Shown here piece by piece: positions 11,595-33,324 of a stretch of 33,704 nucleotides of DNA. Source of the DNA: Ramicandelaber brevisporus (Eukaryota; Kickxellomycota; Ramicandelaberales; Ramicandelaberaceae); assembly GCA_025201865.1 (NCBI GenBank), contig MU602904.1, forward strand, positions 1-33,704. The letters run 5' to 3'. The stretch's first letter is position 1. Each line of letters opens with the position of its first letter. The position numbers and the translations under genes were made by a program. The notes under the pieces are model-generated. The model was not told the DNA's origin. It was given only the letters and a program-made list of their open reading frames with translations, and ran no database searches.

Positions 11595-11683
11595 CCCTCC
11601 AGTAATTTTTTTATTCGAACGCATCTTGCCAGAACTCAGGCCACGTTTTTTTTTTCCTATCCTTGTCAAGGCAGAGCGACGAA

Positions 11684-14600
11684 ATGAAGAGTGGTGGAAG
11701 CCCTGCAGGTTCAATGGACCTGGACGAGGCTATCGACGGTCTGCTTAACAGCGGCCTGTTCAACAGCAGCAACAGTGGCGCGACTCCTCCAATCACAAAC
11801 GAAGCAGATGCCCTTCTCGCTGCTCTCATCAACAGCACTTCACCACAGCTGTCCAACAACTCCTCGTCGCCTGGCAGGAGCCACTCGATTGACCTGCTGG
11901 CAGCTTCTGCTACTGCTGGAGCATCATCCAGCACTGGCACCGCTGCTGTGCCTAACCCCTTTGCTTCACTTGACGGCTCTACTGGAGGAGCCAGCAATGG
12001 GCTTTGGCCGTCTCTCGAATTGGACCAGCAGCTGCTTCTGCTACAACAGCAACCACAGCAGCAACTATCAGACTCAGGCCAGACGCAGATTGATGGAGCA
12101 CTGTTGGATGAGTTGCTGGGAACACCGCCAGATTCGGCAAGTCTCGATTCCTGGCTGAAATCTCTCACGGACTCCACACTGCTTCCTGGGAACTTCAGCT
12201 TTGGCGCCACAATTCAGAATGTGGACAATGTCAATAATAGCAACGATGGCAACGATGGCAATGATGACAACGATGATGACGATGATGATGCATGCAGCGT
12301 TGACTCCGATTCTAGCGATCAGCCCTTGCGATTAACCTCGACCATTGCGGGTACAGCTAGTGTCAATGGCGACACAAAGAGCACTCTGCCAACACCGCCA
12401 GAGATGAACGACGACTCGAGTGGATCAGACATTGCGAGCTCCTATTCAGATGTTCCACCCCCGCGCAAGAAGCCACATCAAGAAACACCAGCCAGGCCGA
12501 TCCATCCCATGCCAGCTTCATTGATGTCACCGACTGGTCGCAAAGTTGTTCCAATCATGCCTGCATCTACAACGCGTCGCCAGAGTACAGACGGCCCAGA
12601 GCCATCAGTAGTGCCAACCGTGGCATACATGGGTTCACCAGCAATGAGTAGCGTGCAATCGCCACAAATGAGTTCACCCACTCCAGCAACAGCAGCAGTT
12701 CATCAAACGAAAAGCGACAAGTCTTCCGCTGTGATGCAAATTGCGCCTTCGTCTAAACAGCCTACACCAAACACAGCAGCAGCGATGCCCATAATGGACA
12801 AGCGCCAAGAGCGATTGATGAAGAACCGCGCATCAGCCTACGAGTCTCGCAAGCGTAAGCGTGAACACATGGAGAGTCTGGAAACGGAGAATGTTGAACT
12901 CAAGGAGCGAATCTCAAAGTTAGTCGACCAAATCAGCAAATTGACCAAGGAGCGCGATTCCTTGTCCACGGAATGCCAGAAGCTGCGCACAGAGAATTCA
13001 TCACTACGCAAGGGTCAGTCTGTGGCTGCATCTAAAGCAACTTCCACCACCAAATCAAAATCCAAAAAGACAGCTCCAGCAGCACCAGCAGCACCAGCAA
13101 CACCAGCGGCTGCGGCTACACCGGCATCATCGATGACAATATCAAAGACTGCCTCAGTCTCCACACCGCCCGAAACTCACTTCCTCAGCTCACTACTACC
13201 AGCAACTATCGTGCCGACTGTATCACCTGGCTCACTCATGGACATTAACGGACTCGGCACTTCGAGCATCTTTGACAGTGTGACATCACCAACATCAATG
13301 TTCCAGCTCGACGGATTCGGTCTCGACCATCCAAACACTCCGCCTGGCTCATCCCCTGGCTGGTCATCATCCGGCTCCACTGGTTCTGGCGACGAAATGG
13401 CTCTGCGCTCCCCAACAACCACCAGTCCATCGGGCAGTGCTGCCAGCCGTCTTCGTCAGTCGGCTCCTCTCATGCTAATGGCAGCCATGTTTTCATTTGC
13501 ACTGTTCGCCATCCCGATGTCACAGTATGGCAGTGGCGGCAGCAACTCAAATGGAGGTTCTGGCATGGTTGGTTACCATCGTGAGTCTCATCATCACGCA
13601 CACCATCACCAAAATGGACAGAATAGCCCTCGTGTCTTTGAGGCACCAGCCGCACAGCAAGGCAGCTCGACTGGTTTGGTTCTTGCCTTTGACGAGTCCC
13701 GTCCACCCAAGACGAACGAGCGTTCGACCAGATCGCCACGGATTCAGCCCAGCCATGACCGTTTGGCCAAGCTGCGGTCTTCCTTGGTTTCATTGACGAA
13801 CCTGCCATCGAATCTGCTCTCTGCGCGCTTCTCAACGGTGGATCTGGCTCGCTGGGTCATTGGCAGACTACAGTTTGCTCATCTTATCAACAGTGAGACA
13901 CAGATTGCAACCAACTCACCTGTTTCGTCATCGCAGCAGCCTGCTGGTCCACATGATGTCGTCACCTGGCAGCCGCCTTCTCCACCGCCTCAAGCACCTG
14001 TGAAGCTCGAGCACCAACAGCAGCACACTGTCGCTGCAACAGCCACGGTAGTCATCCCATCAAAGAGTGGTGCCAGCCCAACCTCATCTTCCAAGAACAG
14101 CGTCTATGCTCAATCTTCAGGAACTCAAGGTGGCGACATTGCCATGCTGTATTGCCCGATTTTGCAGCACTTCATCATGCCACAGACCGATCCAATCGAG
14201 CCATACCATGGCTACAGCACTTCCTCGTCTGCACCAGCCATCACCGCGCAGATTATGCTATCGGCAGCAACTCCGGGTCCAATCCTCCGTGCTCCCAAGA
14301 ATGTAAAGAGCAAAACTCCACCTCAGAAGCTGTTTGATGTTGAACCCGTGCCAGCCAAGCCACAACAGCAGCGCCAGCAATACCACCACCACCAACAAAA
14401 TCACTACGAGGATGTGGACGACTTTGACGAGCATCATCCTGCAAATCATGAATCTGCCGAGTCTGGCGCAGCTTCTGGCCACACAAACAACATAAGCTTG
14501 ACCACTGTTAACGGTGGCCCAGCCGTGCCCCGTCCTCGAATTGCACTGTTTGCTCCACTCCATGATCACTCCAATGCACCTGATGCTCGCTATCCCTCCC

Positions 14601-14764
14601 CTTGGGATGCCGCGGCTGCAGGCAAGTTCTCGACCGAGTCTCCGCTTAACCGCAATGGCGATAAGATTGGTACAGGTCGGTATCTGCGATTGGAAATGGA
14701 GGTTGTTGACTCGGCTGTTGTCGATGCATCGAACTATGCAGCTGGTTTACTACCAATGGCTTAA
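11684..14764 (+). CDS. Membrane-tethered bZIP transcription factor (ATF6/Hac1-like)
   Basis: The 1026-residue protein has an N-terminal region with LL-rich amphipathic motifs (DALLAALINS at 42-51, ALLDELLG at 139-146), like an activation domain. An acidic stretch follows (about 188-209), then a bZIP domain. The basic region has the invariant N-x7-R pattern (N381 to R389, NRASAYESR), and seven heptad leucines run without a break (399, 406, 413, 420, 427, 434, 441). The basic region resembles Hac1 and ATF6 types. At about 593-612 there is one strongly hydrophobic segment, followed by about 410 residues that include a His-rich patch and one sequon (NIS). This is the layout of ER-anchored ATF6, CREB3 and plant bZIP28; fungal Hac1 lacks a membrane span. 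No clear site-1 protease motif was found. The start is the first ATG; the open frame upstream begins at TTG. A role in ER stress is inference. Confidence 0.82.
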   Translation: MKSGGSPAGSMDLDEAIDGLLNSGLFNSSNSGATPPITNEADALLAALINSTSPQLSNNSSSPGRSHSIDLLAASATAGASSSTGTAAVPNPFASLDGSTGGASNGLWPSLELDQQLLLLQQQPQQQLSDSGQTQIDGALLDELLGTPPDSASLDSWLKSLTDSTLLPGNFSFGATIQNVDNVNNSNDGNDGNDDNDDDDDDACSVDSDSSDQPLRLTSTIAGTASVNGDTKSTLPTPPEMNDDSSGSDIASSYSDVPPPRKKPHQETPARPIHPMPASLMSPTGRKVVPIMPASTTRRQSTDGPEPSVVPTVAYMGSPAMSSVQSPQMSSPTPATAAVHQTKSDKSSAVMQIAPSSKQPTPNTAAAMPIMDKRQERLMKNRASAYESRKRKREHMESLETENVELKERISKLVDQISKLTKERDSLSTECQKLRTENSSLRKGQSVAASKATSTTKSKSKKTAPAAPAAPATPAAAATPASSMTISKTASVSTPPETHFLSSLLPATIVPTVSPGSLMDINGLGTSSIFDSVTSPTSMFQLDGFGLDHPNTPPGSSPGWSSSGSTGSGDEMALRSPTTTSPSGSAASRLRQSAPLMLMAAMFSFALFAIPMSQYGSGGSNSNGGSGMVGYHRESHHHAHHHQNGQNSPRVFEAPAAQQGSSTGLVLAFDESRPPKTNERSTRSPRIQPSHDRLAKLRSSLVSLTNLPSNLLSARFSTVDLARWVIGRLQFAHLINSETQIATNSPVSSSQQPAGPHDVVTWQPPSPPPQAPVKLEHQQQHTVAATATVVIPSKSGASPTSSSKNSVYAQSSGTQGGDIAMLYCPILQHFIMPQTDPIEPYHGYSTSSSAPAITAQIMLSAATPGPILRAPKNVKSKTPPQKLFDVEPVPAKPQQQRQQYHHHQQNHYEDVDDFDEHHPANHESAESGAASGHTNNISLTTVNGGPAVPRPRIALFAPLHDHSNAPDARYPSPWDAAAAGKFSTESPLNRNGDKIGTGRYLRLEMEVVDSAVVDASNYAAGLLPMA

Positions 14765-16531: not shown

Positions 16532-18070
16532 TTACTTGTGACCATGTTGGTGGTGATGATGGTGAAAGTGTTTGGCGGCTGAACGACGGATATCATCCTC
16601 GGTGAACGAATTGATCACATTCACTGGCACCGAAATGGCCAAACTATCCCGATGCACCACACTTTCGTCATCAGCATAGCCCAGCAGCTCTTGAATCTGT
16701 GAGCTGTGGCATCCCTTGATGCGGCTAATCTCGCTGGATGTGTAGTTTGCCAAGCCATACCCAATCACCACAGTATGCTTCCGAGGAGCATTGTCACCGG
16801 TGTCGCTACCACCACCACCACCACCATCACCACCATTAGCAGGAATCTCGCACATAATTTGAACACGCTGATTGGCAGCGAAATGACCCTCAACACGAAC
16901 AATGCCAGCCGCGAATAGACTCTTCTTGAACTTGGCCACAGCCACAGCAGCACCTGCATCTATGACAATCTTGCCGTAAGAATACAGGCCGAGAACCCAC
17001 CATTTGCGAGTGTTGAGAGGACGTGGACTGGCAATGAAGCGAGTGCAAATGGTCTTGGTTGCGTGTCGCTCAATAGAGGGCATCGGAATACCTGCGGCTG
17101 CTGGAGATGGAGAAGATGCTGAAGACGAGGATGATGACGATGACGTCAAGTCTACAGATGGCGCTGAGCTAGCGGTGATGTCACCCAATTTGAGCTTGTC
17201 CAATTCAGAGGCAGCAACAGCGGTGGCCAATGCAGCAGTCTCCTTCTGGCGAATCGCCATCAGCTCTTCAACAACAGTCTTAACATGTGCCAAATGAGTT
17301 GATTTCATAACTATCGTCTCCACACCAGCTGCAGATGCCAATTCTGCTGCAATCAGTTTTGTAGCCATTCCGCCCGTGCCCACCGAAGTTCCACTGCTCG
17401 ACACATCCACAATTTTACGCAATGCTGGGATGTCTTCAACAACCCGCACTGGTTTGGCATCTGGGTTAGTGCGTGGATTGTCAGTGTATAAACACTCTAC
17501 ATCCGTCAATAAGAACAGCAAATCAGCATGGATCATACCGGCAGTAATTGCGCTCAAAGTGTCATTGTCGCCAAATCTAATTTCACCCACACTCACCGTA
17601 TCATTCTCATTCACAATCGGCACAACTCCCATTTGCAACAGTGCTTGGAATGTATTGCATGCATTGACATATTGCGTACGCTCTGACAAGTTTCCACGCG
17701 TCAATAATAGCTGAGCAACAGGCTGATCCAACTGTCCAAACAAATCGTCCCAGATTGCCATCAATCGGCCTTGGCCAACTGCAGCCACGGCTTGTTTGTG
17801 AGCAATATCAGTCGGTTTTGTGGGCATGCGCAAGCGACGGAGACCAGTGGCAATTGCGCCAGAGGACACGAGAACTACTCGGTGGCCAGCTTCGCGGAGA
17901 CTGCAGACGAGCTCAACCATTGCTGAGAGATTGCTGAGCAGCGGGAGATGAGTGGTTGAGTCGCAGATGGAGGATGTGCCCAGCTTGAACACAATCGTCA
18001 AGCCATGAGCCTGCTGCTGTTGCTGCTGATCGCCTACCGTGGCAGCTGCCGTTGTAATGTTTGAAGACAT
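16532..18070 (-). CDS. PRO1: Glutamate 5-kinase with PUA domain
   Basis: This enzyme catalyses the first step of proline synthesis, ATP-dependent phosphorylation of glutamate to gamma-glutamyl phosphate. The 512-residue protein has an amino-acid-kinase domain with VFKLGTSSI near 27, VLVSSGAIATGLRR near 66, VPIVNENDTVS near 150 and VGTGGMATKLIAA near 228. A Ser/Ala-rich linker follows, then a PUA domain (about 350-490, RKWWVLGLYSYGKIVID...). The stand-alone form, not fused to glutamyl phosphate reductase, is the fungal and bacterial arrangement. The enzyme is longer than yeast Pro1 because of the poly-Gln leader, the linker and a His-rich tail of about 12 residues. The ATG at 18070 is well placed before a CAG/CAA run. 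The 5' leader on the minus strand is rich in CAA/CAG/AAT triplets. Confidence 0.94.
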   Translation of the reverse strand: MSSNITTAAATVGDQQQQQQAHGLTIVFKLGTSSICDSTTHLPLLSNLSAMVELVCSLREAGHRVVLVSSGAIATGLRRLRMPTKPTDIAHKQAVAAVGQGRLMAIWDDLFGQLDQPVAQLLLTRGNLSERTQYVNACNTFQALLQMGVVPIVNENDTVSVGEIRFGDNDTLSAITAGMIHADLLFLLTDVECLYTDNPRTNPDAKPVRVVEDIPALRKIVDVSSSGTSVGTGGMATKLIAAELASAAGVETIVMKSTHLAHVKTVVEELMAIRQKETAALATAVAASELDKLKLGDITASSAPSVDLTSSSSSSSSASSPSPAAAGIPMPSIERHATKTICTRFIASPRPLNTRKWWVLGLYSYGKIVIDAGAAVAVAKFKKSLFAAGIVRVEGHFAANQRVQIMCEIPANGGDGGGGGGSDTGDNAPRKHTVVIGYGLANYTSSEISRIKGCHSSQIQELLGYADDESVVHRDSLAISVPVNVINSFTEDDIRRSAAKHFHHHHHQHGHK

Positions 18071-18417
18071 ACTCCACTGTTGCTACTCGTAGTCTATTAT
18101 TGCTGCTATTGCTACTGCTATTGCTACTGTTATTGTTGTTGTTGCTGTTGTTGTTGAAGATTCAGACAGCGTATAGTGCGCGTAGTAGATCAATTTCTAT
18201 TCGCGCTCCTCGGCGAGTTTTTATTCTGACAGCTCTGACTCGGGATGTGACTCTTGTTGCATACTACACATCATGTATACCATCATACATCGATATCAAC
18301 TTTATGGCATTCTAAGAAAATTAATACCGGTAAGGGAGAGTAATCTTGTTTAAAAAATAAATGAAAAATAAGAGTAAAGCAATTAGACGCTTACTAGTGC
18401 TTAAAGTTAATTTATGT
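18071..18417. other. 347-bp spacer between PRO1 start and MPE1 stop
   Basis: The left part (about 18078-18157) is a degenerate trinucleotide repeat, CAA/CAG/AAT-type on the PRO1 sense strand, and is probably the PRO1 leader. The remainder should hold the PRO1 promoter and the MPE1 3' end. No gene is seen. Confidence 0.6.
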
Positions 18418-19154
18418 TTATCTACGGGAGGAAACCCATCCATCCCACTTGTCACGCGAATCGCTCTTGTCATCACGTCGATAATCACGGCGTGGTGGTG
18501 GTGGTGGTGGAGACCTCGAACGGGATCTATCTCTACGTTTGTTGTTGCCACGATCATTGTCATCATTATCAGAATACTTGCCATTTTCACGGTCACGCTT
18601 GGCACGACCGCGGCCGCCACGACGACGGCGACGACGATTGCGCTTACGCTTGCCATCACCGCCACCTGGACCATCACGACGAGGAGAACGCGAGCGGGAA
18701 CGCGAAGGTGATGGGGAGCGGGATAGAGAGCGACGGCGTGAACGAGAATAAGCTGGTGAGCGAGAGCGGGAGGGGGAACGCGAACGGGACCGAGGACGAG
18801 AGCGGGTGTAGGATGGCGAACGACGACGGCGTTCTCTACGGGATGACGAATACCGGTCTCGAGATGGAGAGCGCGAGCGACCGTGAACCAACGAACGGGG
18901 TGGTGTTGGTGGATGAGAATCACTCTCCGATATCTCACCAGGTGAGCGAGGCGATGGTGCTGCCGATGGTGCTGCCGATGGTGCGGCTGATGGCGCGGCA
19001 GATACATTAACTGATGGCGGCTGTGATCCATTCTGACTCGACTGATCTTTATGCTGCTTTTCCAGCTGAGTCTTACGAACCAACTCTGCCAAATGTGGAG
19101 GCAATTGGACTGGACGAGACTGGATTGGTGGTGGTGGTTGTTGTTGAGGAACAG

Positions 19155-19194
<40 letters not shown>

Positions 19195-20865
19195 GGTAGG
19201 GGCTGCTTGTGGCGGAAGATGGTGGTGCATCATACCGGGCATGGGCATTGGGCGATATCCAGGATGACCATAGCCTGGATACTGCTGCTGATGTGGCTGC
19301 TGCTGTTGCTGATGAATAGGCATGTGAGAATATTGATAGTACTGATGAGGATATCCACCAATCTGAGGAGGAGGAACAATGGGGATAGATGCAGCTGCTG
19401 GATGAACATTTGTGATTGGAATGCTGTGAGAGGAAGGCAGAGGCTGCGAACCAGACACTGGAATTGTGCCAGTGCCGCCACTAGGTAATGAAGTGACGAT
19501 GGGCATGTTGCTAGCCGCTGGCACATTTTGAGAAGAGGTAGTGGTGGAATAAGAAGCAACAGCAGTAGTAGCAGTGGCAGTGGCAGCAGTGGCAAGGGCA
19601 TGATCACGACGTAACTTATCAACGGCCACGCGTACATCTAAATCAGATGTAATTTGGTCAAAAGAAATGATGGAGTGACAATTATGACACGATGACACAG
19701 CAGAGGTGGATGGAGAAGACATTGAAGTAGAAGAGACACAATCCTCACAAAACAATGCATTACAGCAGGGAGTACGGACTGCATTGCGAACCAAATTATT
19801 GCAGATGCCACACTTGTACTCGGGTGGAACCTCAAAAGACACCGATGATCCATTTACGCCGTCATTCGAGGCAGCATGGCCCTCGGAAGACTGAATGATC
19901 GAAGTAGAAGTAGCGGTAGAAGTAGAGGTAGAAGTAGCGGTAGTAGTGGTAGAAGGTTTAACTCCATTTACAGTGCTTGAGTCTTCATCAACAGCATCTG
20001 CACCTACAATGTGCTGCTGGAGACGTTCCCATGCAGCAGTATTCGTCTGTCGAATAGCATACTGACCAGTGGACGTAATCAGCGACGCACCAGCAGCAGA
20101 GGCTTCCGCAGTAGGTGCATCAACCAGCTGCAGGAACATTTTGGGAATGCCAGTGGCCCGATGCACTCGCTGTTGATTGCCATCCGGGCCACTTGTGACA
20201 TTTGGGCACTCAGTAATGTGGTGGCCGCCAATGCCGCACTTGAAGCAAACGTACGAAGCCTTGACGGGACGCGTTGGGCGAGCACCTCCACCAGGCGCTC
20301 CAGCTCCAGCTCCAGCTCCAGCTCCAGGTGCATGTGGGCGGAAGCGGACAGGCTGTTTAGGGTTAACTTGAGCATGCATCAACAGCTCTTGTTGAGTGTA
20401 CAGCGACTCTTTAGCAAGCAGCTGTTGAAGGCTAGACTCATCCATCGACATTGTGTCAGCTCCGGCTCCAACTCCAGCTCCAACTCCAGCAGCCTGTTGA
20501 TGCTGCAACTGATACTGGGGCTGGTACTGATTCACCGAGTTGCTTTGAGCACTGGCGAGTTGCTTCTGGAGCTGTTGAGCCTTAGCCTGTTGCGAAGCAG
20601 CACCTTTGCCAACAAGCTCCATATAGCCAGAGCGGCCAGGTTTGACCGGCACACGGCCAACAATCAACGACGTATGCCGAGGTATCATCTCACTAAGCTC
20701 GACATACTCATCGCCAGACTCGTTTGTAACCCTCACATCATATGAGCCTTCGCCGAGTGCTGTAAACACTGCGATTTTGAAGTCGGCGAGGCTGATAGCA
20801 TTGCCATCGAAGGACACCTCGTTCTGCTTGCCAGCGGCGCCGATCCTGTAGAAGACGCTCGGCAT
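18418..20865 (-). CDS. MPE1: Mpe1/RBBP6-type protein: DWNN domain, zinc knuckle, RING finger, RS tail
   Basis: Mpe1 is a subunit of the pre-mRNA cleavage and polyadenylation factor; its animal counterpart RBBP6 is also a RING ubiquitin ligase. The 815-residue protein has the ubiquitin-like DWNN domain at 1-75, starting at the initiator Met (MPSVFYRIGAAGKQNEVSFDG). A CCHC zinc knuckle lies at 207-220 (C-x2-C-x4-H-x4-C). A RING/U-box-like finger lies at 352-396 (CGIC...CCNALFCEDC...CHNC), followed by Gln/Pro-rich sequence. The last 160 residues or so are dense in RS, SR and basic residues. Yeast Mpe1 (about 440 residues) lacks such an RS tail, which recalls animal RBBP6 and splicing-linked proteins. 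A four-copy AAPS repeat lies just before the RS region. The start is certain because the DWNN domain begins there. Confidence 0.93.
18953..19000 (-). repeat. 12-bp tandem repeat, four copies, inside MPE1
   Basis: Four near-identical 12-bp units (18953, 18965, 18977, 18989) encode a repeated Ala-Pro-Ser-Ala pattern between the Gln/Pro-rich region and the RS tail. The first two copies are identical. It is an in-frame minisatellite, so length variation would not break the gene. Confidence 0.85.
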
Positions 20866-21266
20866 GTAGCTTCAATGGAGGATGAAACGGGAAAGCAACA
20901 GCAACAGCAACAAAAGTGGGTTAAAAAGTAAAAAAAAAAAAATCGAAGGAGGAAACCAAAACAACAGCGTTCAAGAGTTGGGGAGAAGAGGCCAGGTTCA
21001 GGATTAATCAGCCTGTCCGATTGATTGATTAACCATACTGTGATGAGATGGAGGACTCATGTTACTTACTACTGTAGAGTTGCAACATTTTGCATAATCA
21101 ACTTTTCTCAAGCCGATTCATGTCAGTGTTACTTCCACTTCTAACAGCTGACAATGCTAATTACAGATAAGTTAAGTTCATCCAGTTAGACTTTACTATC
21201 GGCATTTTTGCGTTTTCATTACAAACTGTACCTTCTCATCACGTAGTGCTGGATAGCAGTTTGGAT

Positions 21267-21283
21267 GACAAAGTCACTTTGTC
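21267..21283. promoter_or_regulatory. 17-bp palindrome, GACAAAGT-C-ACTTTGTC
   Basis: The two 8-bp arms are perfectly inverted around a single central C. The core AAGTCACTT recurs, on the opposite strand, in a second palindrome about 52 bp away (centre to centre). A dimeric factor site is likely; its binding protein is unknown. Confidence 0.5.
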
Positions 21284-21316
21284 GATTTTGTTCGCGTTTG
21301 TTTTGTTTGTTTCCCA

Positions 21317-21336
21317 CAAACGAAGTGACTTGTTTG
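21317..21336. promoter_or_regulatory. 20-bp imperfect palindrome sharing the AAGT-S-ACTT core
   Basis: The sequence CAAACGAAGTGACTTGTTTG is inverted-symmetric apart from one extra base in the left arm. It contains AAGTGACTT, the reverse complement of the core at 21271-21279. It lies about 120 bp upstream of the zinc-finger start codon. Confidence 0.5.
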
Positions 21337-21432
21337 CTCTCTCTGATCTCAACTACTCGACTGAAGATTGACCACTACCAATAACAGCAATAGCAACAGA
21401 ACAGCACAGAGCATAACAGCTGATCTACCCAA

Positions 21433-21453
21433 CAGCCAGCCAGCCAGCCAGCC
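21433..21453. repeat. (CAGC)n repeat touching the zinc-finger start codon
   Basis: Five CAGC units run directly into the ATG at 21454. Because the repeat is tetranucleotide and lies upstream of the start, its length changes leader length but not the frame. Confidence 0.9.
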
Positions 21454-21816
21454 ATGTCGACCGTGAAGATCAAGACAGAGCCAACAGCAACAACAGCAGC
21501 AGCAGCAACAGCAGTCGAGGTGCTAGTCAAGCTCGAGCCGAGTCTCTCTACAGCTGATATCAAACTCGAGCAGCATACTTCAGACATTGACACCAAAGTC
21601 GAGTCTGACAGCGAGGCTAACGACATCAAATCCGAGAGTGACGATGAAAGCGATAACAATGGAGGCACCGACCAGCACCAGCGAAAGTTCATCTGTAATT
21701 ATACTGGATGTGACCGTATCTTCAATTATGCCAGCAGTCTGGGAAAGCATCGACATGAGCACAAACTCCAAACAAATCTCACTATACTTGGAAAGACTTA
21801 CACCTTGACACGGTAG
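21454..21816 (+). CDS. Zinc-finger gene, 5' part: SUMO-motif array plus one C2H2 finger
   Basis: If translation stops at the TAG, the product has 120 residues. Its N-terminal 68 residues carry five xKxE motifs at 6-9, 25-28, 36-39, 47-50 and 58-61. Four fit the SUMO consensus psi-K-x-E exactly (IKTE, VKLE, IKLE, IKSE) and the fifth is TKVE. The last four are exactly 11 residues apart. An acidic Ser/Asp stretch follows, then one complete C2H2 finger at 81-103. A one-finger protein would be a weak DNA binder, which again suggests truncation. Confidence 0.6.
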   Translation: MSTVKIKTEPTATTAAAATAVEVLVKLEPSLSTADIKLEQHTSDIDTKVESDSEANDIKSESDDESDNNGGTDQHQRKFICNYTGCDRIFNYASSLGKHRHEHKLQTNLTILGKTYTLTR

Positions 21817-22542
21817 TCGTTAGATGATCGATGGCCATGTCCTATTCTGGGTTGTACATCAGCACTCAAAACAGTTGATACTGCATATAAACATATGCGA
21901 GAAGGTCATAGTAATACTACGAAACAGCAACGGGAGCAACAGCCTCCAACAATGAGAACTCGGCTCAATCTATACTTCGTTGATGTGGATGACTTTTACG
22001 TGAATGGAGTTCGCTGTGGTTATCATACTACGACTGGAGTGTTCATTTGTCATGACTGTCGATTGGTGCCAGAATGTCTACTCGCACACTTGCAGCAAAA
22101 GCATGGATATGATGAGAAATCAATTGACAACTCTGCTCTGCCAGAGAGTGCAGTAAATGCAAGTGCAGATCCCAACATCAATCAGCACACCAGCAATCCA
22201 CATCTCGCAGCAGCAATTCGCCAGCCATATCAATGGCGTAACCCAGATATTATTCAAGGTTGGCTGTGTATTGCACCTGATTGTGGATATTGTGGTCACA
22301 CAGCTAGAGATAAGAGTCATCACAAGAAAAATATTCATCAAGGCGAGCCGATAACAACTGTCCCTGCACTTGTGTTGCGATTACCTTATGCAAAAACACA
22401 AACCGCATACTTTCTCATTACTCGACTGGACACGACAACAGGCAACATCAATCCAAGTAGCTCAGTCAGTCAAATTAATAGCGAGTGCGATTATGATGAG
22501 CTAGTACTGAGCGATTATAGTGATGAAGATGATATCCATTAG
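21454..22542 (+). CDS. C2H2 zinc-finger gene interrupted by one in-frame TAG (composite view)
   Basis: From 21454 to 22542 a single frame codes throughout except for one TAG at 21814-21816. Before the stop lie a SUMO-consensus-rich N-terminus and finger 1 (residues 81-103, C-x4-C-x12-H-x3-H). Directly after the stop, in the same frame and before any further ATG, is finger 2 (21838-21909, C-x4-C-x12-H-x4-H, CPILGC...HMREGH). Fingers 3 and 4 follow. A real finger downstream of the stop and upstream of the next ATG shows that the two parts were one gene. GT-AG removal of the TAG was tested: the usable donor at 21813 with acceptors near 21862 or 21876 either destroys finger 2 or gives a new stop. 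The remaining options are a recent nonsense mutation, stop readthrough or a sequence error. A DNA-binding role is probable. Confidence 0.65.
21895..22542 (+). CDS. Zinc-finger gene, 3' part: two zinc-finger-like motifs, OrsD/DUF3505-like pattern
   Basis: The open frame is 215 residues from the ATG at 21895, but that ATG lies inside finger 2, so it is probably not a true start. The first motif is FICHDCRLVPECLLAHLQQKHG (C-x2-C-x9-H-x4-H), 15 residues after NGVRCGYH. The second (residues about 126-147) fits C-x4-C-x12-H-x4-H after QGWLCIAPDC. Paired fingers of this type recall the fungal OrsD/DUF3505 family, but that match is from memory of the pattern and is tentative. The C-terminus is acidic. 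The final stop is TAG. Confidence 0.5.
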   Translation: MREGHSNTTKQQREQQPPTMRTRLNLYFVDVDDFYVNGVRCGYHTTTGVFICHDCRLVPECLLAHLQQKHGYDEKSIDNSALPESAVNASADPNINQHTSNPHLAAAIRQPYQWRNPDIIQGWLCIAPDCGYCGHTARDKSHHKKNIHQGEPITTVPALVLRLPYAKTQTAYFLITRLDTTTGNINPSSSVSQINSECDYDELVLSDYSDEDDIH

Positions 22543-22933: not shown

Positions 22934-25900
22934 TTAAGCCGAAGCGGAGGCAGCAGCAGCGGCAGCAGAGGCAGCGGCGGCCTTTTGTGCCAACGTAATC
23001 TTGTCACCAAGTCCAAGAGCAATGCCCTGGAGCTTACTGCGGATACGAATGTGGCCGACAATTGGTCCATTTCCTTGCTTCTCGATGCTAATGTTTGCGA
23101 GAGCATCTTCACCGAAGCTGCTGCGAGCGTACAAATTGGCAGCGAGGAAGCCACAGTCGCCGGACAAGGCCGCCTCTGGAGTTAAGCAAGCCATGTGCGT
23201 CACGTCCATAATGTGCTGGAGATACTTGCGAAGGTCAGTTTCGACTGGTGGGTTAACGGTGACCTTGTTCTCCCACTCAAACTCGGCCCACATGGAGCGG
23301 AATTGGGCCAAGGTGACAGTGCCTGGCTTGATGTACTCCATAATGTCGACTGGAATGTCGTTAAGGATGACGCAGCCGCCAGAAATGGCATCGGTGTGAC
23401 CTGGACCATCGTACACAATGTTGCCAAAGATGAGACCAGTCTCTGTGGAGGAAACCTTGACAGTGGCCTTGCACGATAGGAAGCCCTGTGGACCGAGGTT
23501 GTAGGTTCCGGGACGCTCAACCACCTTGAGGTCGCCAAGAGTGGCAAGCTCCAGAGACAGGTTGCGCAGGGTATCAGAGGTCTGGTTGACGACCAGGAAG
23601 TCCAGCGCAATGTCCATGTTGCGGATGGTGAGATAGGCTTCGCAGTAGACTGGATCGCTATAGCCGGTGAGCTGCACCACACTGTCAAGACGCTTCGTAC
23701 CAGCGGTAACATTGGAGGTGCGACCGAGAGCAGCGCGCATGTCGACTTCATTCTGGTCAAGAGGAGCGGAGCCAGGCTTGCCAGCAACGCCGCCGCCAGG
23801 ACCACGGCGCGACAGCCAGCGAGTGCGGATACCATCATCAACAGAAACACCAATCTTAGCACCAGAGGCAGGCGAGGCAGCCTCGACAGCCTTGCGCTGG
23901 GCATCGGCCTTTGCACGGCCGCGTTCGACAAAGCGACTGAAGGCGCGGTGAGTCGAGCCAATAAACTCTTGGTCACCAGTGCTTGGGGCGGCATCCTTGG
24001 TAGCCGGATCGATGCGAGAACGAGAAAGTGCATCAAGAACGCGCAGGCAGGTGTTGATGCGATCGGTGGAGTCCTCGTCGATACCAGTCTTAAGCACGGC
24101 CGCGTTCGACATCGAGCCAATAAACTCTTGGTCACCAGTGCTTGGGGCGGCATCCTTGGTAGCCGGATCGATGCGAGAACGAGAAAGTGCATCAAGAACG
24201 CGCAGGCAGGTGTTGATGCGATCGGTGGAGTCCTCGTCGATACCAGTCTTAACAAACTGAGAGTGGCCCAAGCGAATGATGCCAGTCAGAATGAGCATGG
24301 CCTCGGCGTGAAGTAAATTGACATCCTTGGCTGGCACCGCAGCAGAGTCCGAGCGAGCAAGAGTGTTGATACGAAGAACCAACTTGGTGAGCGCATTGGC
24401 TAAAGAGGTGGCAACAAAGAAATCGCCATCGAGGAGCAGTGCGCGGATGGCAGGACGCTCCGAGCCGCTTGAGCCAGCCGGAGATCCAGTTTCACCGCCA
24501 AAGGCACTCTCAGTTGCGTACGTGCCATCGGCGAGGATACGGCGGCCACTGCTGCCAGCTCCTGTGCTCGATGCAGCTGGAGAGGTAGCAGCATCATCGC
24601 CAGAATTCTTGCGGTCCAACGCTGCTTGCTCAGCGCTCAGCAATGGAATCGGTCCGATGGAGGCGCGAATGGCATCCCAGGTGCTGCGGATCTCGTCGGT
24701 TGTGATGGCAAACTCACCGAGTATCCAGAGTGCGCCACGGATGACACGAGAGCCGCGCAGGTTCGAGCCAAAGAGGCCAATAAGCTCAGCAACAATTGAT
24801 GGACGCAGGTCAGCATACACCTCGGTAAGCTCACGGAGGAAGCCAACAACGTCGGCGCCGGCCTGGTTCTTGGACGAGCCGGTGGAGTTGTCCAGCTCGG
24901 CAGTCAGAGTCTCAAACAGAACGTGAGCCACATCCGACGCGACATCTGGGAAGCGCTGAGCACAAGAGTTAACAGCGGAAAGAAGCTGCTGACGATACTC
25001 GGCATTCTCGGCAGCCTCGCTCTCCTTGCTCTCAGAGGCAGCGGCAATGGTACGAGCCAGCTCCTTCTTGAACAATGCAACCATCTCGCGGACATTCTGG
25101 CGAGAGAGCAGCGAGCTCATGAAGCCCAATCCCTTGCGACGAACCTCGACATCGAGATTCAGCAAGATTGGCGCACAATCCAAGGCGAGATCGGCCAAGA
25201 CGCCAGCGCGGTCGACGGCATCGTTCGATGGCTCGGCACGCATGCGCTCAAGCATGTCCAGAATTGTCAGCTTGATGTTGCTGTCTGGCTCTGATACAAC
25301 AAGGCTGATCAGAGTGCGAGCAGCATCCTTAACAAGGGTTGGGTGGGTGGTCATGGCCAGGATAGCCGATGCAGCCTCGAAGCGAACCCAGGAGCGGGTT
25401 GAAGCGGTGGTGGCCAGCTGATGAACTGCCTGGAGCAGCTTTGCAGGCTCGACTCCAGCAGCACCGCGGGCACGGGAACCAGCACCGGCAGCCATACCAC
25501 CAACCGTGCTGCTAAGACGGTGGTATTCCTTGCGGATGAGCTCAATGGCGGCAGTCTGCATGGTATCATCAAACAAATCAAACTGGTCCAGGACGCCAGC
25601 GAGATACGACAAGGCAGCCTGCTGGTTGGCATCGCATAGCATCACAAACATGGCGCGCTTGCAGGCACTGTCGACCTCCTCGGCGAGCGCAATCTCGATA
25701 AACTCAACCGCATCTGGAATCAAGGCTGGAACGGCCTGGTAGAGCGAAGAAATAGCGTTAACAGCATTGCGGCGCACGTATGATACACGGTGCTTCAGAC
25801 ATTCGCGCACGGCTGGGATCAAAGGCGTGACGACCTCCGGGTCGCGCATCTTGCACAGGAGACGCAGCGTGGCACCTCGCACGTACTCGTTGGGCGACTG

Positions 25901-26242
25901 CAAGTCGTTAAGCAGGGCATTCACCACGAGAATGAGCTCCTCGCGTGGGGTGCCGTCCGCCTTGCGCTTTGGGCAAATTTCCCAGTAGAAGAGAAGCAGC
26001 TTCTTCAGAATCTTGTTCTTTGACGGCAGCACGAAGCGGATAACATGCATGAGCAGCCCATCAAGGCCAGTCTCGCCGTTAACGTGCGCGATTATAATCT
26101 GGCGAAGTGCGTCGATCTTCGCGTCGTCCGATCCCTTCTCAAGCGCCTGGCGAAGGCGGCCTAACGAGGACTGCGCATCGAAGGCGTCGGCCTGATGGAT
26201 AAGGGTGTAGCAAGGTGCCTCTTGCGGCGACTGTTCAGGCAT
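22934..26242 (-). CDS. SEC26: Coatomer subunit beta (beta-COP)
   Basis: Beta-COP is part of the COPI coat for retrograde Golgi-to-ER vesicles. The 1102-residue protein starts at the ATG at 26242 (MPEQSPQEAPCYTLIHQ); 40 upstream codons are open but begin with TTG. The N-terminal adaptin-like HEAT solenoid is clear (LRQALEKGSDDAKIDALRQI, FVLPSKNKILKKLLLFYWEI, NEYVRGATLRLLCKMRDPE, SYVRRNAVNAISSLY). The C-terminal coatomer appendage follows a linker (LTGYSDPVYCEAYL, VNQTSDTLRNLSLELATLGDLKVVERP, then the platform part). In the linker, residues about 664-710 are repeated at 717-763 with a 53-residue period, an odd recent duplication that keeps the frame. The C-terminus ends in an Ala/Ser run. Codon use favours C-ending codons, as expected for a highly expressed gene. 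Confidence 0.95.
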   Translation of the reverse strand: MPEQSPQEAPCYTLIHQADAFDAQSSLGRLRQALEKGSDDAKIDALRQIIIAHVNGETGLDGLLMHVIRFVLPSKNKILKKLLLFYWEICPKRKADGTPREELILVVNALLNDLQSPNEYVRGATLRLLCKMRDPEVVTPLIPAVRECLKHRVSYVRRNAVNAISSLYQAVPALIPDAVEFIEIALAEEVDSACKRAMFVMLCDANQQAALSYLAGVLDQFDLFDDTMQTAAIELIRKEYHRLSSTVGGMAAGAGSRARGAAGVEPAKLLQAVHQLATTASTRSWVRFEAASAILAMTTHPTLVKDAARTLISLVVSEPDSNIKLTILDMLERMRAEPSNDAVDRAGVLADLALDCAPILLNLDVEVRRKGLGFMSSLLSRQNVREMVALFKKELARTIAAASESKESEAAENAEYRQQLLSAVNSCAQRFPDVASDVAHVLFETLTAELDNSTGSSKNQAGADVVGFLRELTEVYADLRPSIVAELIGLFGSNLRGSRVIRGALWILGEFAITTDEIRSTWDAIRASIGPIPLLSAEQAALDRKNSGDDAATSPAASSTGAGSSGRRILADGTYATESAFGGETGSPAGSSGSERPAIRALLLDGDFFVATSLANALTKLVLRINTLARSDSAAVPAKDVNLLHAEAMLILTGIIRLGHSQFVKTGIDEDSTDRINTCLRVLDALSRSRIDPATKDAAPSTGDQEFIGSMSNAAVLKTGIDEDSTDRINTCLRVLDALSRSRIDPATKDAAPSTGDQEFIGSTHRAFSRFVERGRAKADAQRKAVEAASPASGAKIGVSVDDGIRTRWLSRRGPGGGVAGKPGSAPLDQNEVDMRAALGRTSNVTAGTKRLDSVVQLTGYSDPVYCEAYLTIRNMDIALDFLVVNQTSDTLRNLSLELATLGDLKVVERPGTYNLGPQGFLSCKATVKVSSTETGLIFGNIVYDGPGHTDAISGGCVILNDIPVDIMEYIKPGTVTLAQFRSMWAEFEWENKVTVNPPVETDLRKYLQHIMDVTHMACLTPEAALSGDCGFLAANLYARSSFGEDALANISIEKQGNGPIVGHIRIRSKLQGIALGLGDKITLAQKAAAASAAAAAASASA
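23953..24252 (-). repeat. Exact 141-bp direct repeat (period 159) inside SEC26
   Basis: The copies at 23953-24093 and 24112-24252 are identical over 141 bp. The 18-bp spacer at 24094-24111 is itself a copy of 23913-23930. In that original place it is separated from the repeat by 22 more bases (23931-23952). The simplest reading is a 181-bp tandem duplication with a 22-bp deletion at the junction. The net 159 bp (53 codons) keeps the frame, whereas 181 bp would not. The spacer is read in a different frame in the inserted copy. Confidence 0.95.
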
Positions 26243-27673
<1,431 letters not shown>

Positions 27674-27882
27674 ATCAGCAATTGGCATTCATCCACTCTC
27701 ACCTCTTATTTTTCATTTTTTTAACTCAACAATCTACCTATTACTAATACCCATTATCACATTGCAGGTTGCTTGTTGCATGTTGTAGCTATTTGCAATA
27801 ATGAGGCGAGCCGGCGGGGAAGGAGGATGGATGTAGTTTTTTTCCTCCCCTTCCAGACGCTGGCTTTCGAGGGACACTTGAA

Positions 27883-28746
27883 ATGTTTCGCACTATCTCA
27901 CCACGACGACTGCTCGAACATACAACGAGAGCTGCATCAACTGCACACGCGCTGCAAGGTTACCCTCATCGCCTCGCACTCTCTCTCAACTCTGACCACT
28001 TCCGCCACATTGCCTACAGCAACAGCCGCAGCAACAGTAGCCGCACTATGAGCACTTCCTCCGACTCGGAGTCCGAGGCTTCCTCGTCTCGCCGGTTCAA
28101 AATCTACACCCGCACTGGCGACAAGGGCACCTCAGCACTGTATTCCGGCGAGCGACGTGCAAAGGATGATGCCATCTTCGAGGCCCTTGGCACAACCGAC
28201 GAGCTCACCTCTCACATTGGAGTCGCCATCGAGCACCTCCGCGACTCACCTTCCTCCGGCGCATTGCTGATTGACAAGCTTTCCCACATCCAATGCCTGA
28301 TCCAAGACGTCAACTCCAGCATTGCTACGCCTGCAAGCTCAAAGTCAAAGTCTCGCGTTGCCAAAACTCGGTTTGATCCCGATGGAGAGTGCACAAAAAT
28401 GCTGGAGAATTGGATCGACGAACTCGATGCCAAGCTGCCACCGCTGACAAACTTTATATTGCCGTCCGGCGGTAAGGCAAGCGCGACGCTGCATGTTGCA
28501 AGAGCAGTGTGCAGAAGAGCTGAGCGTAGAATTGTGCCGTTGATGCGTGCACCTCAGCAAGATGATTATTTGGATGAGGAAGAGGCAGCAGCAGCAGCAG
28601 CAGCAGCAGATGTGGATAAGACTGTGGCAGTGTTTGTGAATCGATTGAGTGACTTTTTGTTTGCGGCTGCTCGGTACGCCGCGCAATGTGATGGTAAAGA
28701 AGAAATTGTGTATGTTAATAAGCGCACCACACCTAAAGCAGCATAA
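27883..28746 (+). CDS. MMAB: Corrinoid adenosyltransferase, PduO/MMAB type, probably mitochondrial
   Basis: The enzyme makes adenosylcobalamin from cob(I)alamin and ATP, the coenzyme of methylmalonyl-CoA mutase. The 287-residue protein has a probable mitochondrial presequence ([19 protein letters not shown], with Arg and Ser and no acidic residues early on). Then come the family motifs [22 protein letters not shown] (ATP-binding), [54 protein letters not shown] and [16 protein letters not shown]. Between the last two motifs lies an Asp/Glu and poly-Ala insert ([16 protein letters not shown]), coded partly by GCA repeats. Cobalamin use is patchy in fungi and generally absent from Dikarya. No B12 partner gene lies in this window. 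Confidence 0.94.
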
Positions 28747-29494: not shown

Positions 29495-30101
29495 CGTGAT
29501 TATTCGCTGTGGGTTGCTTGGTTGATGCTGCTCGGTCGACAATTGTGCGTGGTCTGCACACCGCCTTCGTCAAATATATCCTTGTTTCCACTGTGGGCCA
29601 TGCAGCCCTCTCTCCCCCGATATGGAATCTGGATGCAAATGTCCATGCGAGTGGGATGCTGGATCTCCTTTGGATTGTGCATCCAAATAACAAATATCCG
29701 CGCATTGTTCTCCTTGCCTCCAGAATACTTTGTGTACGGTATCCATCTCCTTGGGTTGTTCATGATAAGCTTTGCAATAGGGCAATTTCAACAGCAATAC
29801 ACTAGTAGTGCACATGCAATTGTGAACCACAGTAGCTATTATAAGATCAACTGATGAAGGGAGAGTCTATTGAAAGATGCGGCTCCACCAACTTTCAAAG
29901 GAGACTGTCAATGCCACTGAATGGCAGCTCACCTATTCGTCTCACTCCTTTTTTATTTTGGTACTCTGCTGCTCACCACCTTCCTGTACGAATGATTCGT
30001 ATCTGTTTCCACAAACGTATTCGATAACTCTTTTGATTACTTTGCTCATTCCTTGTTCTTTTTTCTTCTTTTCCTTCTCTTTATACCAACCTGCCTCTCG
30101 C

Positions 30102-30134
30102 TCTTCCTCCTTCCTCCTTCCTCCTTCCTCCTCT
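30102..30134 (+). repeat. CTCCTTC tandem pyrimidine repeat in the MFS leader
   Basis: About four 7-bp CTCCTTC units lie within a longer CT-rich stretch (30049-30182) directly upstream of the MFS start codon. Similar sense-strand pyrimidine tracts precede several other genes in the window. Confidence 0.75.
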
Positions 30135-30199
30135 CTTCAACGCCATTTCCTCAGATTTTACTCTCCTCCCTTGTTATTTTTTTCACTGCTGTTGCTTGC

Positions 30200-31615
30200 A
30201 TGAATTCAGACAAGGATATCGAAAAGGACAGCGACTCTGTAACCTCACAGGCTATCCCAGCTAATGACGATGGCGCTCTCAAGAGTGAATTATCCGACGA
30301 ATGGGATAGTCGACGAAGCTGGCTTATGCTAACTCTCTCGTTCTTCGTCTTTGTCTTTCTCAATGGCTACATCAACTGCATTGGAGTTATTCAGCGCCAT
30401 TTCACCGAAGACATGCTGGGACATAGCTCTGCCACAGTTGTCGTTGCTGGCTCAATGCAAGTTGCATTTCTAAATCTAGTTGGGTCGCCAGCCGGCATCG
30501 CAGCTGAGCGTTTTGGCTACAGAGTTGTTCTTATGGCAGGATGCCTGCTGAGCATGGTGGGGCTACTACTTGCATCATTTGTTAATGCTGATAATCTGTG
30601 GTTATTGGTGCTGTCGCATGGAGCTCTTATAGGATCTGCTGCAGCTTTGCTAGTGATCCCCTTGTGCAGTATTCCAACCGTGTGGTTCTTGAAGAGACGT
30701 GGACTGGCAAATGGAATATTGATGGCTGCGAATGGGATATCGGGACTGGCATTCCCACCACTGATGCAGAAACTGATTGACACTGTTGGAATCCATTGGA
30801 CATTGCGCATATTCATATTGGTTGTTGCTGTGATTGGAGGCATTCCATCCTGGTTTATTCACGAGAGCAATCATGCTTCAAGTGTGGCAGTAGCATCACA
30901 AGAACCCGATTCTGGCTCTAAACCGGAACAGCATTCACAATCATCAACATCACAATCACAATCATCATCAGTGATTCAAAGAGTCGGCGCGAAACTGCGT
31001 GCTGTGCTTGGCCTAGTTGCCGACTTTTCGCTACTCCAAAACAAACCATTCATTGTTGTTTCCATTTTAAACTTTACCAGTGGCTGCGCATTCTTTATTC
31101 CATACCAGTACTTGCCAACATATGCTACGCGTCAAGGCTTCACCACAGACCAGGCAGCCCTTCTCGCATCTCTCCTTGGTGCCGGTCAAATAATTGGCGG
31201 GTTCGGAGGCGGTCTTCTTATGGATTACATTGGTGTTTACAACTTGCTCGTTCTTGTTCAACTGTTGAGCACGCTAACACCTGCCGTGCTGTGGACTCTA
31301 AGTCAGCAGTTTTCAGTCTTGGTAGCGTTTAGTGTGACATACGGAATTGCATCAGGTGCTGGTGTGCTGACTACCGGTCCTTCAGTTGCAGTGTTGTTTG
31401 ATGTGAGAAGAGTTCCATCTGCTCTTGGAATGCTGTTCTTGATGTTTGGACTGGGAATTATCGCAACATTTACAGCATATGGTCCACTGGAAGATGTTGA
31501 TCCAGTCAACATGTATCCGTTGATAATCTTCACAGCAGTCTTCAATTTTGTAACAATGGTCCTTTCAATGTATGCTCGATGGATGATATCTCCAAAGTTA
31601 TCTGACAAAGTTTAA
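30200..31615 (+). CDS. Major facilitator superfamily transporter, monocarboxylate-transporter-like
   Basis: The 471-residue protein has about twelve membrane segments. The first starts near residue 38 (WLMLTLSFFVFVFLNGYINCIGVIQRHF). The next parts (SATVVVAGSMQVAFLNLVGSPAGIAAERFGYRVVLMAG) fit the TM2-TM3 region with the family's R-x-G-x-R-x-V-type loop. A polar Ser/Gln-rich loop (about 233-260) separates the two six-helix halves. The pattern suits the MCT/SLC16 and fungal Mch group, whose members move monocarboxylates or related acids; the substrate here cannot be told. The usual acidic signature before TM1 is degenerate (EWDSRRSW). The ATG at 30200 begins a hydrophilic N-terminus; the open frame upstream to 30053 begins at TTG and is leader. 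The gene converges with PUS1, 80 bp apart. Confidence 0.85.
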   Translation: MNSDKDIEKDSDSVTSQAIPANDDGALKSELSDEWDSRRSWLMLTLSFFVFVFLNGYINCIGVIQRHFTEDMLGHSSATVVVAGSMQVAFLNLVGSPAGIAAERFGYRVVLMAGCLLSMVGLLLASFVNADNLWLLVLSHGALIGSAAALLVIPLCSIPTVWFLKRRGLANGILMAANGISGLAFPPLMQKLIDTVGIHWTLRIFILVVAVIGGIPSWFIHESNHASSVAVASQEPDSGSKPEQHSQSSTSQSQSSSVIQRVGAKLRAVLGLVADFSLLQNKPFIVVSILNFTSGCAFFIPYQYLPTYATRQGFTTDQAALLASLLGAGQIIGGFGGGLLMDYIGVYNLLVLVQLLSTLTPAVLWTLSQQFSVLVAFSVTYGIASGAGVLTTGPSVAVLFDVRRVPSALGMLFLMFGLGIIATFTAYGPLEDVDPVNMYPLIIFTAVFNFVTMVLSMYARWMISPKLSDKV

Positions 31616-31695: not shown

Positions 31696-33324
31696 TTAGT
31701 CATCATTAGAGTCCTTTTCATCATCGCCATCATCAAATGATGCAGTACTCTCGGTTGATTTAAGCACGCCTTCCGGGTTAATGTAGGGCAACGCTCCATA
31801 TTTAACCTGATACTCATCAATACCGCGGACCCACGCATCAAACCAGTCGTTCTCAACTTCCTCCCGCACAATTTCGTCATAAATGTGTTCCTGCTTAAAC
31901 TTCATGATTGCATCTTCGTATGGCTCAAATGATATTGCTGGTGTATCGACATGGCTCGGGTTCTGCTGACTGTGCAATCCACCGGGTCCATACTTCTTGT
32001 TGTAGTACTCAAACACTGGCCGATCCAGCAGCAAACCTAATCCAGGAGCTTTCGGAATGTTAGCCTTCGATTTCGACAGTAATTCGCGCATCACTGTGAT
32101 TGGAGTGCCAGATCGCACAAGCAAGATGACGAGGCCAATCATTTTGCGGATCTGGTGCATCATGAAAGATTGGCCGTGGACACGAAGACGCAGCCACTCG
32201 GTGCCGTTGATGAGAGTGGGTTCACCAACCACTTCGAATGACATGATGACGCGCTGAGCACTCTTGTCGTTGGCATTTTTGCGAATGGTGAAATTGTGGA
32301 AGTTGTGTGAACCCTTGTATTGAGCAAAGGCTTGTCTGACAGTCTCGAGAGTTTCCGAGGAGATGCGATATGCGCGCTTGGCTGCCATCTCTTCAGCTGA
32401 TAGCCGCTCGACTGGTGGCAGGTCAGAACGCCGAGATGGCTGCGATGCCGATGTCGATGCCTCCGGAGAAGCTGCTGCTGAAGCTGCTGAAGTTGCTGCT
32501 GGTGCTGCTGAAGTTGCATCTGTAGTCGTATCCGTTGCAGTGGCTGGGGAAGTGGAAGCAGAGGACGAGGTGGGTGGCAGGAATACATATGTTGGCAGCA
32601 TGTACTCATACATTCGAGAGTCGCACTGGTTCTTTGGGTTGAATGACTTGACAGTGCGTGCGTATCCCCAAACACGAATCTGCGCTGGCAAATGCTCGTT
32701 AATCTTGGCCACAATGTCTGTTACACCTGGCACATCCACAATCATCTTCAACGACACAACTTGTCCAGCAGCATGTACGCCCTTATCCGTTCTAGCGCAG
32801 CGCTGGAGTGAAACCTTCTTTTGATCGTTCGCATTATCCTTGGACACGGCGCCTGCTGCCACTAGAGCATCAAACAGGTCACCTTCGATTGTGCGCTGAC
32901 CTGGATTGACTTGCATCCCAGCGTATCCCGTGCCGTTAAACCCGAGCAACAATGCAACCTTCTTCTTGGGCAACCGTGGCTCGCCGCTCGGATTGTGCTC
33001 ATCATCTTCATCGTCATTTTCATTGCGCTGACGAGGAGTTTGAGCAACGCGGTCTGTAATGTACAGCGGCTTGCCATCCTTGCTCTTTGGACCACGAGTG
33101 CCTCGGCCGCGGTTGTTCTTTTTCTTCTGCTGGTGTTGCTCTTGTTGCTTTTGAGAATCATCTGTAGCAACAGCAGTGTCGTCAGCATCAACGCGAGATG
33201 AAGACTCCATGGAAGTGGCTATTGCTTCGCCAGCGCTGGAGATGCGTGCACGCTTGACCGTGATATCACTGGCATCAACAGCGTCAGCAGCGTTCGATCC
33301 AGTCAACTGATCTACTGGGTTCAT
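31696..33324 (-). CDS. PUS1: tRNA pseudouridine synthase Pus1
   Basis: Pus1 converts uridine to pseudouridine at several tRNA positions (such as 27 and 34-36) and in some other RNAs, mainly in the nucleus. The 542-residue protein of the TruA family has KKVALLLGFNGTGYAGMQ at 121-138. The catalytic Asp180 lies in RCARTDKGVHAAGQVV. Later motifs are MYEYMLPTYVF, SHNFHNFT and MMHQIRKMIGLVILLV. A low-complexity Ser/Thr/Ala insert sits between YVFLPP and the ERLSAEE motif. The first 115 residues or so are polar and Gln/Lys-rich, with possible nuclear localisation signals (KKKNNRGRGTRG). The C-terminal end is acidic. The ATG at 33324 is the first in frame and lies beside an A/T-rich leader. Confidence 0.94.
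   Translation of the reverse strand: MNPVDQLTGSNAADAVDASDITVKRARISSAGEAIATSMESSSRVDADDTAVATDDSQKQQEQHQQKKKNNRGRGTRGPKSKDGKPLYITDRVAQTPRQRNENDDEDDEHNPSGEPRLPKKKVALLLGFNGTGYAGMQVNPGQRTIEGDLFDALVAAGAVSKDNANDQKKVSLQRCARTDKGVHAAGQVVSLKMIVDVPGVTDIVAKINEHLPAQIRVWGYARTVKSFNPKNQCDSRMYEYMLPTYVFLPPTSSSASTSPATATDTTTDATSAAPAATSAASAAASPEASTSASQPSRRSDLPPVERLSAEEMAAKRAYRISSETLETVRQAFAQYKGSHNFHNFTIRKNANDKSAQRVIMSFEVVGEPTLINGTEWLRLRVHGQSFMMHQIRKMIGLVILLVRSGTPITVMRELLSKSKANIPKAPGLGLLLDRPVFEYYNKKYGPGGLHSQQNPSHVDTPAISFEPYEDAIMKFKQEHIYDEIVREEVENDWFDAWVRGIDEYQVKYGALPYINPEGVLKSTESTASFDDGDDEKDSNDD

Follow-up and report, generated by a model that had tools for sequence, protein, structure and literature searches.

The window, by which we mean the whole stretch of 33,704 nucleotides analysed here (contig MU602904.1, positions 1 to 33,704), comes from the genome of Ramicandelaber brevisporus (Kickxellomycotina; 17.9 Mb in 510 contigs), a saprotroph described as widely distributed in soils (PMC5285503). 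It holds a zinc-finger gene interrupted by a single in-frame TAG, set among the neighbouring genes listed in Table 1. Scanning the window against Rfam and for tRNAs gave no matches. The 2462-codon open frame on the reverse strand is rich in Q, S and acidic runs. The public model of the glutamate 5-kinase (P0001) lacks about 55 in-frame residues that are open in the genome, perhaps because of a falsely predicted intron; otherwise the genomic frame agrees with the R. brevisporus protein, save for four residues before its start.

Table 1. Genes and features of the window
Feature	Position	Strand	Basis
CDP-alcohol phosphatidyltransferase	588-1454	+	Pfam
HAT1	1536-3398	+	Pfam
Open frame of 2462 codons	3522-10910	-	No Pfam match
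bZIP	11606-14764	+	Pfam
Glutamate 5-kinase	16532-18082	-	
DWNN	18418-20871	-	Pfam
Upstream region common to paralogues (promoter/leader; approximate start), core CTACTCGACTGAAGATTGACCA	21279..21453	+	BLAST similarities mostly from near -170
One-module MSTVKIKTEP zinc-finger family member with one internal TAG	21454..22542	+	
N-terminal tail with four psi-K-x-E (SUMO-acceptor-type) motifs	21454..21693	+	
Finger A, C-x4-C-x12-H-x3-H (C81, C86, H99, H103)	21694..21762	+	
In-frame TAG, codon 121 (CAG or CAA in most paralogues)	21814..21816	+	
Finger B, C-x4-C-x12-H-x4-H (C129, C134, H147, H152), 3' of the TAG	21838..21909	+	
Finger C, C-x2-C-x9-H-x4-H (C199, C202, H212, H217), within the OrsD-like part	22048..22104	+	
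Finger D, C-x4-C-x12-H-x4-H (C272, C277, H290, H295)	22267..22338	+	
Approximate junction from module-1-like to module-2-like sequence, near codon 304	22360..22372	+	Log-likelihood maximum at residue 304, tail score -58.2
Terminal TAG, a normal end for the family	22540..22542	+	Terminators of intact copies
Coatomer beta	22934-26404	-	Pfam
Ubiquitin-conjugating enzyme	26987-27673	+	Pfam
Cobalamin adenosyltransferase	27805-28746	+	Pfam
MFS transporter	29996-31615	+	Pfam
tRNA pseudouridine synthase	31696-33351	-	Pfam

Re-reading the frame confirmed two statements of the initial annotation, namely that the internal TAG is the only stop between the ATG and the terminal TAG and that an exact C-x4-C-x12-H-x4-H finger (finger B) follows it. 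The two TAG codons are separated by 241 sense codons and the read-through frame has 362 residues and four fingers, with A upstream of the internal stop and B, C and D downstream. Chance had been thought unlikely to leave such a frame open, and indeed none of 20,000 shuffles of the 723 nt stayed open and the frame is the same as in many homologues, so that its openness is not accidental. The earlier claim that no intron rescues the gene also stands, although it can be refined: many GT-AG or GC-AG pairs delimiting at least 18 nt do drop the TAG and keep the frame open to 22540, but every frame-keeping pair listed destroys finger A or finger B. Since the intact paralogues are in addition continuous through the site, splicing of the TAG was rejected. 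AlphaFold, run on an alignment of two rows, yielded a model of poor quality (mean pLDDT 40.4, pTM 0.25), in which weakly modelled helices at residues 93-102, 141-151, 206-217 and 284-293 provide one helix per expected finger. A search for a second allele of the neighbourhood found none: the coatomer side matched itself alone, and the opposite side yielded, besides itself, short repeat matches only.

The interrupted gene belongs to a large family. Gene starts fitting a 29-base pattern with at most three mismatches occur 110 times genome-wide (66 forward, 44 reverse), while the reversed-pattern control gave 0, and when the genome was queried with the window protein, 99 of the 116 matches listed start at the gene front (query position 1, 2 or 22). 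Five pairs among the listed matches have equal scores (C137/C221, C6/C499, C173/C331, C184/C231 and C305/C454) and the copies on C132 and C92 share 98.7% identity across 1503 bases. There may thus be closer to 100 distinct loci, alleles and recent duplicates being indistinguishable here. We read 51 copies including that of the window, of which 44 are intact, one (L039) is cut by a contig end and six are broken. Single lesions within otherwise open frames mark the window copy (TAG), L009 (TGA) and L037 (TAG), L038 has two TGA codons in an otherwise open frame, L036 has a TAA followed by a sequence jump, and L013 has lost its frame. The TAG of L037, on C132, is at codon 173, where the C92 copy (L061) has CAG; the C92 stretch holds 4850 N. 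As judged from these sequences, the family genes are open frames without introns that encode modular C2H2/OrsD-like zinc-finger proteins.

Intact copies terminate with TAA (22), TAG (20) or TGA (2). The family C-terminus (22516-22542 in the window) has two ends, the stop coming either right after YSD, as TAA, TAG or TGA, or, some five codons further on, after DDIH or a similar sequence. These terminators bear on the genetic code itself. The internal TAG falls where most relatives have a glutamine codon, which is what decoding of TAG as glutamine in R. brevisporus would produce; yet TAG closes 20 of the 44 intact members at the normal C-terminus, and TAA or TGA the others. TAG being a normal terminator in the family, we rejected recoding, whose probability we regard as negligible. 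Global reassignment had already been judged unlikely, and the family supplies stronger evidence for that judgement.

Selection has acted on most of the copies read as protein-coding genes: the module-1 codon tree gives an omega of 0.365, and internal stops are absent from 44 of 51 copies, whereas a neutral two-module copy at dS 0.40 would be expected to hold about 33. The tree and the dN/dS values were obtained from 42 of the 51 copies, leaving out those broken early (L013, L036, L037 and L038) and five one-module copies whose junction lies before, or is unlike, that of the window copy (L030, L031, L032, L033 and L035). Internal branches make up just 6.7% of the total length of this tree. Its almost star-like shape is what would be seen after a burst or with much recombination, and our use of the consensus codon as ancestor depends on it. 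A burst, together with about 110 dispersed copies whose flanks mostly differ, could also be the signature of a mobile element rather than a gene set, the TAG then being the decay of one insertion. We consider this unlikely in view of the omega value and of the intact copies, where neutral ones would carry dozens of stops, and the members scanned gave no recombinase or transposase matches.

As a set of genes, the family is built from modules of four zinc fingers, present in numbers of 1, 2, 3 or 5. Intact one-module copies span 348-374 codons (7 copies) and two-module copies 663-687 codons; three copies with three modules (L059, L060 and L063; 990-996 codons) and one with five (L062; 1644 codons) are open throughout. 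The copies L059 to L063, one of them mostly N, were read for module number only. All eight one-module copies, that of the window included, resemble module 1 at the front and module 2 at the end, and their score maxima fall at residues 304, 311, 262, 269, 182, 166, 301 and 221. Because the junctions differ in position, at least some of these copies represent separate recombinations between modules, and the three- and five-module copies would be the expected reciprocal products. Exchange between genes is suggested as well by one pair, L014 and L027, in which two successive 100-column blocks are fully identical amid a profile of roughly 50-96% identity; this points to gene conversion or a recent segmental exchange. 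The identical blocks extend from about +176 to +476 relative to the ATG, over fingers A and B.

Similarity between copies reaches beyond the coding sequence to a limited extent. For most pairs it ends about 170 nt 5' of the ATG and no more than about 100 nt 3' of the stop, exceptions including L014/L027, which remain alike over about 600 nt upstream and 200 nt downstream, and L021/L027, with a 488-column match further downstream. The upstream comparison used stretches of 21 copies, and the core CTACTCGACTGAAGATTGACCA was sought in the 21 copies with at least 300 nt of upstream sequence. With up to three mismatches it was found in 19 of them and not in the remaining two (L015 and L016).

Within the proteins, conservation and variation are distributed very unevenly over the fingers. 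In the 38 two-module copies used for these statistics, each of the 24 zinc-ligand positions of fingers A, B and D of both modules is kept in 36-38 copies, two Cys and two His at C2H2 spacing being maintained across copies, and relative to the consensus the ligand codons carry 3 and 1 nonsynonymous against 96 and 71 synonymous changes (modules 1 and 2, respectively). In the Pfam scan of members, PF00096 stayed below its own cut-off where it was listed. Canonical fingers contact bases from helix positions -1, 3 and 6, to which positions 1 and 2 contribute (PMC2604467), and we analysed positions -1, +2, +3 and +6. Relative to the overall synonymous rate, their nonsynonymous rate is 1.07 in module 1 and 1.05 in module 2, while the same measure is 0.45 and 0.42 for non-finger codons (Mann-Whitney p = 7e-5 and 9e-5); the nonsynonymous/synonymous ratio of the contact positions themselves is 1.21 and 1.16, against 0.45 and 0.42 elsewhere. 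Concomitantly, the six fingers display 34, 34, 33, 33, 38 and 37 distinct contact quartets among 37-38 copies. The signal is not confined to contact residues: the own ratio of these positions is just 0.41 in finger A of module 1, further variable residues lie outside them, and in module 1 the variation at helix positions +1 and +5 is on a par with that at contact positions (1.06 versus 1.07). It thus concerns the exposed face of the helix, and we read it as diversification of the DNA-facing helix surface, with positive selection at the contact positions being suggested.

The tail that precedes the fingers is shared and has a character of its own. Motifs of the psi-K-x-E type accept SUMO, and the family tails contain on average 3.80 of them (range 2-5, 51 copies), as compared to 0.13 after shuffling of the tails and 0.01 per 90 residues outside them.

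A 150-base stretch around the TAG of the window copy was aligned with the other 50 copies, where both modules of a copy may count, and in the resulting 66 places the corresponding codon is CAG (45), CAA (10), CAT (3), GAG (2), CGG (2) or, once each, CAC, AAG, CTG and GAA; none is a stop. A single C-to-T change converts CAG, the commonest codon among the relatives, into TAG. Over 183 codons after the TAG, comparison with the other 41 copies yields a mean dN of 0.216 and dS of 0.703, i.e. a ratio of 0.308 where the median of the 42 copies is 0.298, and the dN of the window copy is the second lowest of the 42. Had its whole branch been neutral (dS 0.30-0.40), the 723 nt should have gained 8.8-11.8 new stops. 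The observed number is zero, so that at the 5% level no more than about 25-34% of the branch can have been neutral. The codons beyond the TAG have therefore not decayed, meaning that the lesion is young, or not real, or not effective, three options that the sequence alone does not separate.

The very young nonsense allele put forward in the initial annotation fits both observations, the stop being found in none of the aligned places and the downstream frame being unrelaxed. Since the TAG is absent from the relatives, its context is ordinary and other members are broken too, a young null allele is the most likely of the options, and a recent nonsense allele in a birth-and-death family is probably the best reading of this TAG. 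Two features of the window copy count against a null allele: dN/dS is rather high upstream of the TAG (0.496, rank 36 of 42), and the preserved downstream codons would equally fit readthrough or a base-call error. In the latter case, the error would lie in the base call or assembly at 21814 and the true gene would be an intact one-module member like the seven others, from which a one-base difference to the family and the lack of decay downstream would follow. Lesions are nonetheless common enough in the family, with internal stops in four of the 50 other copies read and a lost frame in one. The TAG of the C132 copy against the CAG of its 98.7% identical C92 counterpart, with 20 of 1503 sites differing, looks like real variation and indicates that such lesions do occur, which leaves an error at 21814 improbable.

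Programmed or tolerated readthrough, in which low-level decoding of the TAG would yield a 120-residue and a 362-residue form, would account for downstream codons as well conserved as those of intact copies. The suggestion of the initial annotation that readthrough is programmed nevertheless found no positive support. The TAG is common to none of the aligned paralogues, the TAG TCG context differs from the UGA-CU(A) motif reported in fungi (PMC4207609) and the structure downstream is not unusual (z 0.24; folding as good or better in 111 of 200 shuffles). The same annotation had rightly pointed out that TCG follows both the internal and the terminal TAG, but TCG at the internal site is simply family sequence, present in 16 of 20 aligned relatives. 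We regard readthrough as highly improbable. A slimmer chance still is given to selection for the short product, whose SUMO-type tail and finger A are complete, or to reinitiation at the ATG at 21895 or a later one of the in-frame ATG codons 3' of the TAG, producing fingers C and D; not one of the 50 other copies read ends at the TAG site.

The family is also elusive at the level of known domains and public proteins. The window copy matches OrsD (PF12013) weakly, with 21.9 bits for a cut-off of 26.6, and among four other members scanned one passes the cut-off (L016, 2e-8) and three give no match (L018, L026 and L028); genome-wide, 17 of the 46 places listed pass, two of these only with neighbours. 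A FOXP-CC match in L026 (29.5 for a cut-off of 28.9, with no single stretch passing) was set aside as finger resemblance. Searching public proteins with the L010 protein gave no match among 7997 scored candidates, and we suspect that low-complexity words filled the candidate list. Residues 496-680 of L026, compared with 5.8 billion proteins, retrieved one match among 191 candidates, at 38% identity; the search was limited to proteins of 0.55-1.75 times the query length, so that one-module members would not be listed. This protein (P0121) is the R. brevisporus hypothetical protein GQ42DRAFT_8514 of 865 aa, which matches the genome at 100% over its 865 residues, and its gene (C120:8437-11031) adjoins a family copy. 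It shares the order of fingers A and B and the OrsD-like part, with the 38% extending over 69% of the query region, whereas its N-terminus is different and it has an extra C-terminal region. The latter occurs at no fewer than 11 places, on C311, C221, C137, C66, C21, C85 and C39. Genes of the P0121 type make up a second, smaller OrsD-like class, with several in a row on C311.

The family itself is nearly absent from public proteins although other R. brevisporus proteins are present there, and our suspicion is that it was lost to repeat masking ahead of gene prediction. A family with 44 intact copies among the 51 read can thus go almost unrepresented in public protein sets. The titles and opening lines of the abstracts listed on Ramicandelaber, OrsD and C2H2 or KRAB-like expansions contain no account of it, and Ramicandelaber is not mentioned in the available part of PMC8778642.

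Altogether, these data suggest a scenario in which a C-to-T change turned the usual glutamine codon between fingers A and B into TAG. Translation would then stop at residue 120, so that only the psi-K-x-E tail and finger A would be made, a predicted outcome that makes the copy a presumptive recent null allele in a family that would gain and lose members through duplication, gene conversion, internal recombination and decay. The family proteins would be sequence-specific DNA binders whose DNA-facing helix residues differ from gene to gene, while the common N-terminal tail would recruit a shared partner, SUMO being the obvious candidate; they may therefore constitute a repressor family with many DNA targets. 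By itself the TAG is ordinary gene turnover, and it is the family around it that is unusual for a fungus. As a tentative proposal, for which the odds are somewhat less than even, we suggest a fungal counterpart of the KRAB repertoire: about 100 promoter-sharing genes that join a SUMO-acceptor array to one to five modules, each gene having its own contact code, and that probably silence changing genomic targets. The window TAG would be one step of its birth and death, and the family, missing from the annotated proteins of the species, would hence be nearly invisible. Why a saprotrophic soil fungus needs about 100 such proteins is the question that this raises.

In vertebrate poly-zinc-finger proteins the fingers form one tandem array, whereas here they are grouped by four into modules that include an OrsD-like part and long spacers, and the host is a fungus. 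The contact-position ratio of about 1.2 also sets the family apart, positive selection being only suggested by it, and KRAB, SCAN and BTB gave no Pfam match in the four members scanned. Common to both the vertebrate KRAB/poly-zinc-finger families and the one described here are a large lineage-specific expansion, fixed zinc ligands, a concentration of variation on DNA-facing helix residues, gene conversion and a shared non-finger region (PMC2604467). OrsD has also been reported in the subtelomeric UTASb elements of Ustilago maydis, which are helicase-linked repeats (PMC10532341). The part around fingers C and D resembles OrsD in some members, and weakly in the window copy, but the members scanned lack a helicase match and possess fingers A and B in addition. 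Lineage-specific expansions of C2H2 proteins are likewise described for Basidiomycota, with 1032 C2H2 genes in 30 species; the highest species total named is 74, in Schizophyllum commune, as compared to about 100 members of a single family here (PMC12295980). Finally, diversity of DNA binding by C2H2 proteins has been presented as a metazoan speciality, fungal fingers being limited in recognition, and a fungal family with fixed ligands and almost gene-specific contacts would provide a natural test of this view (PMC5588721).
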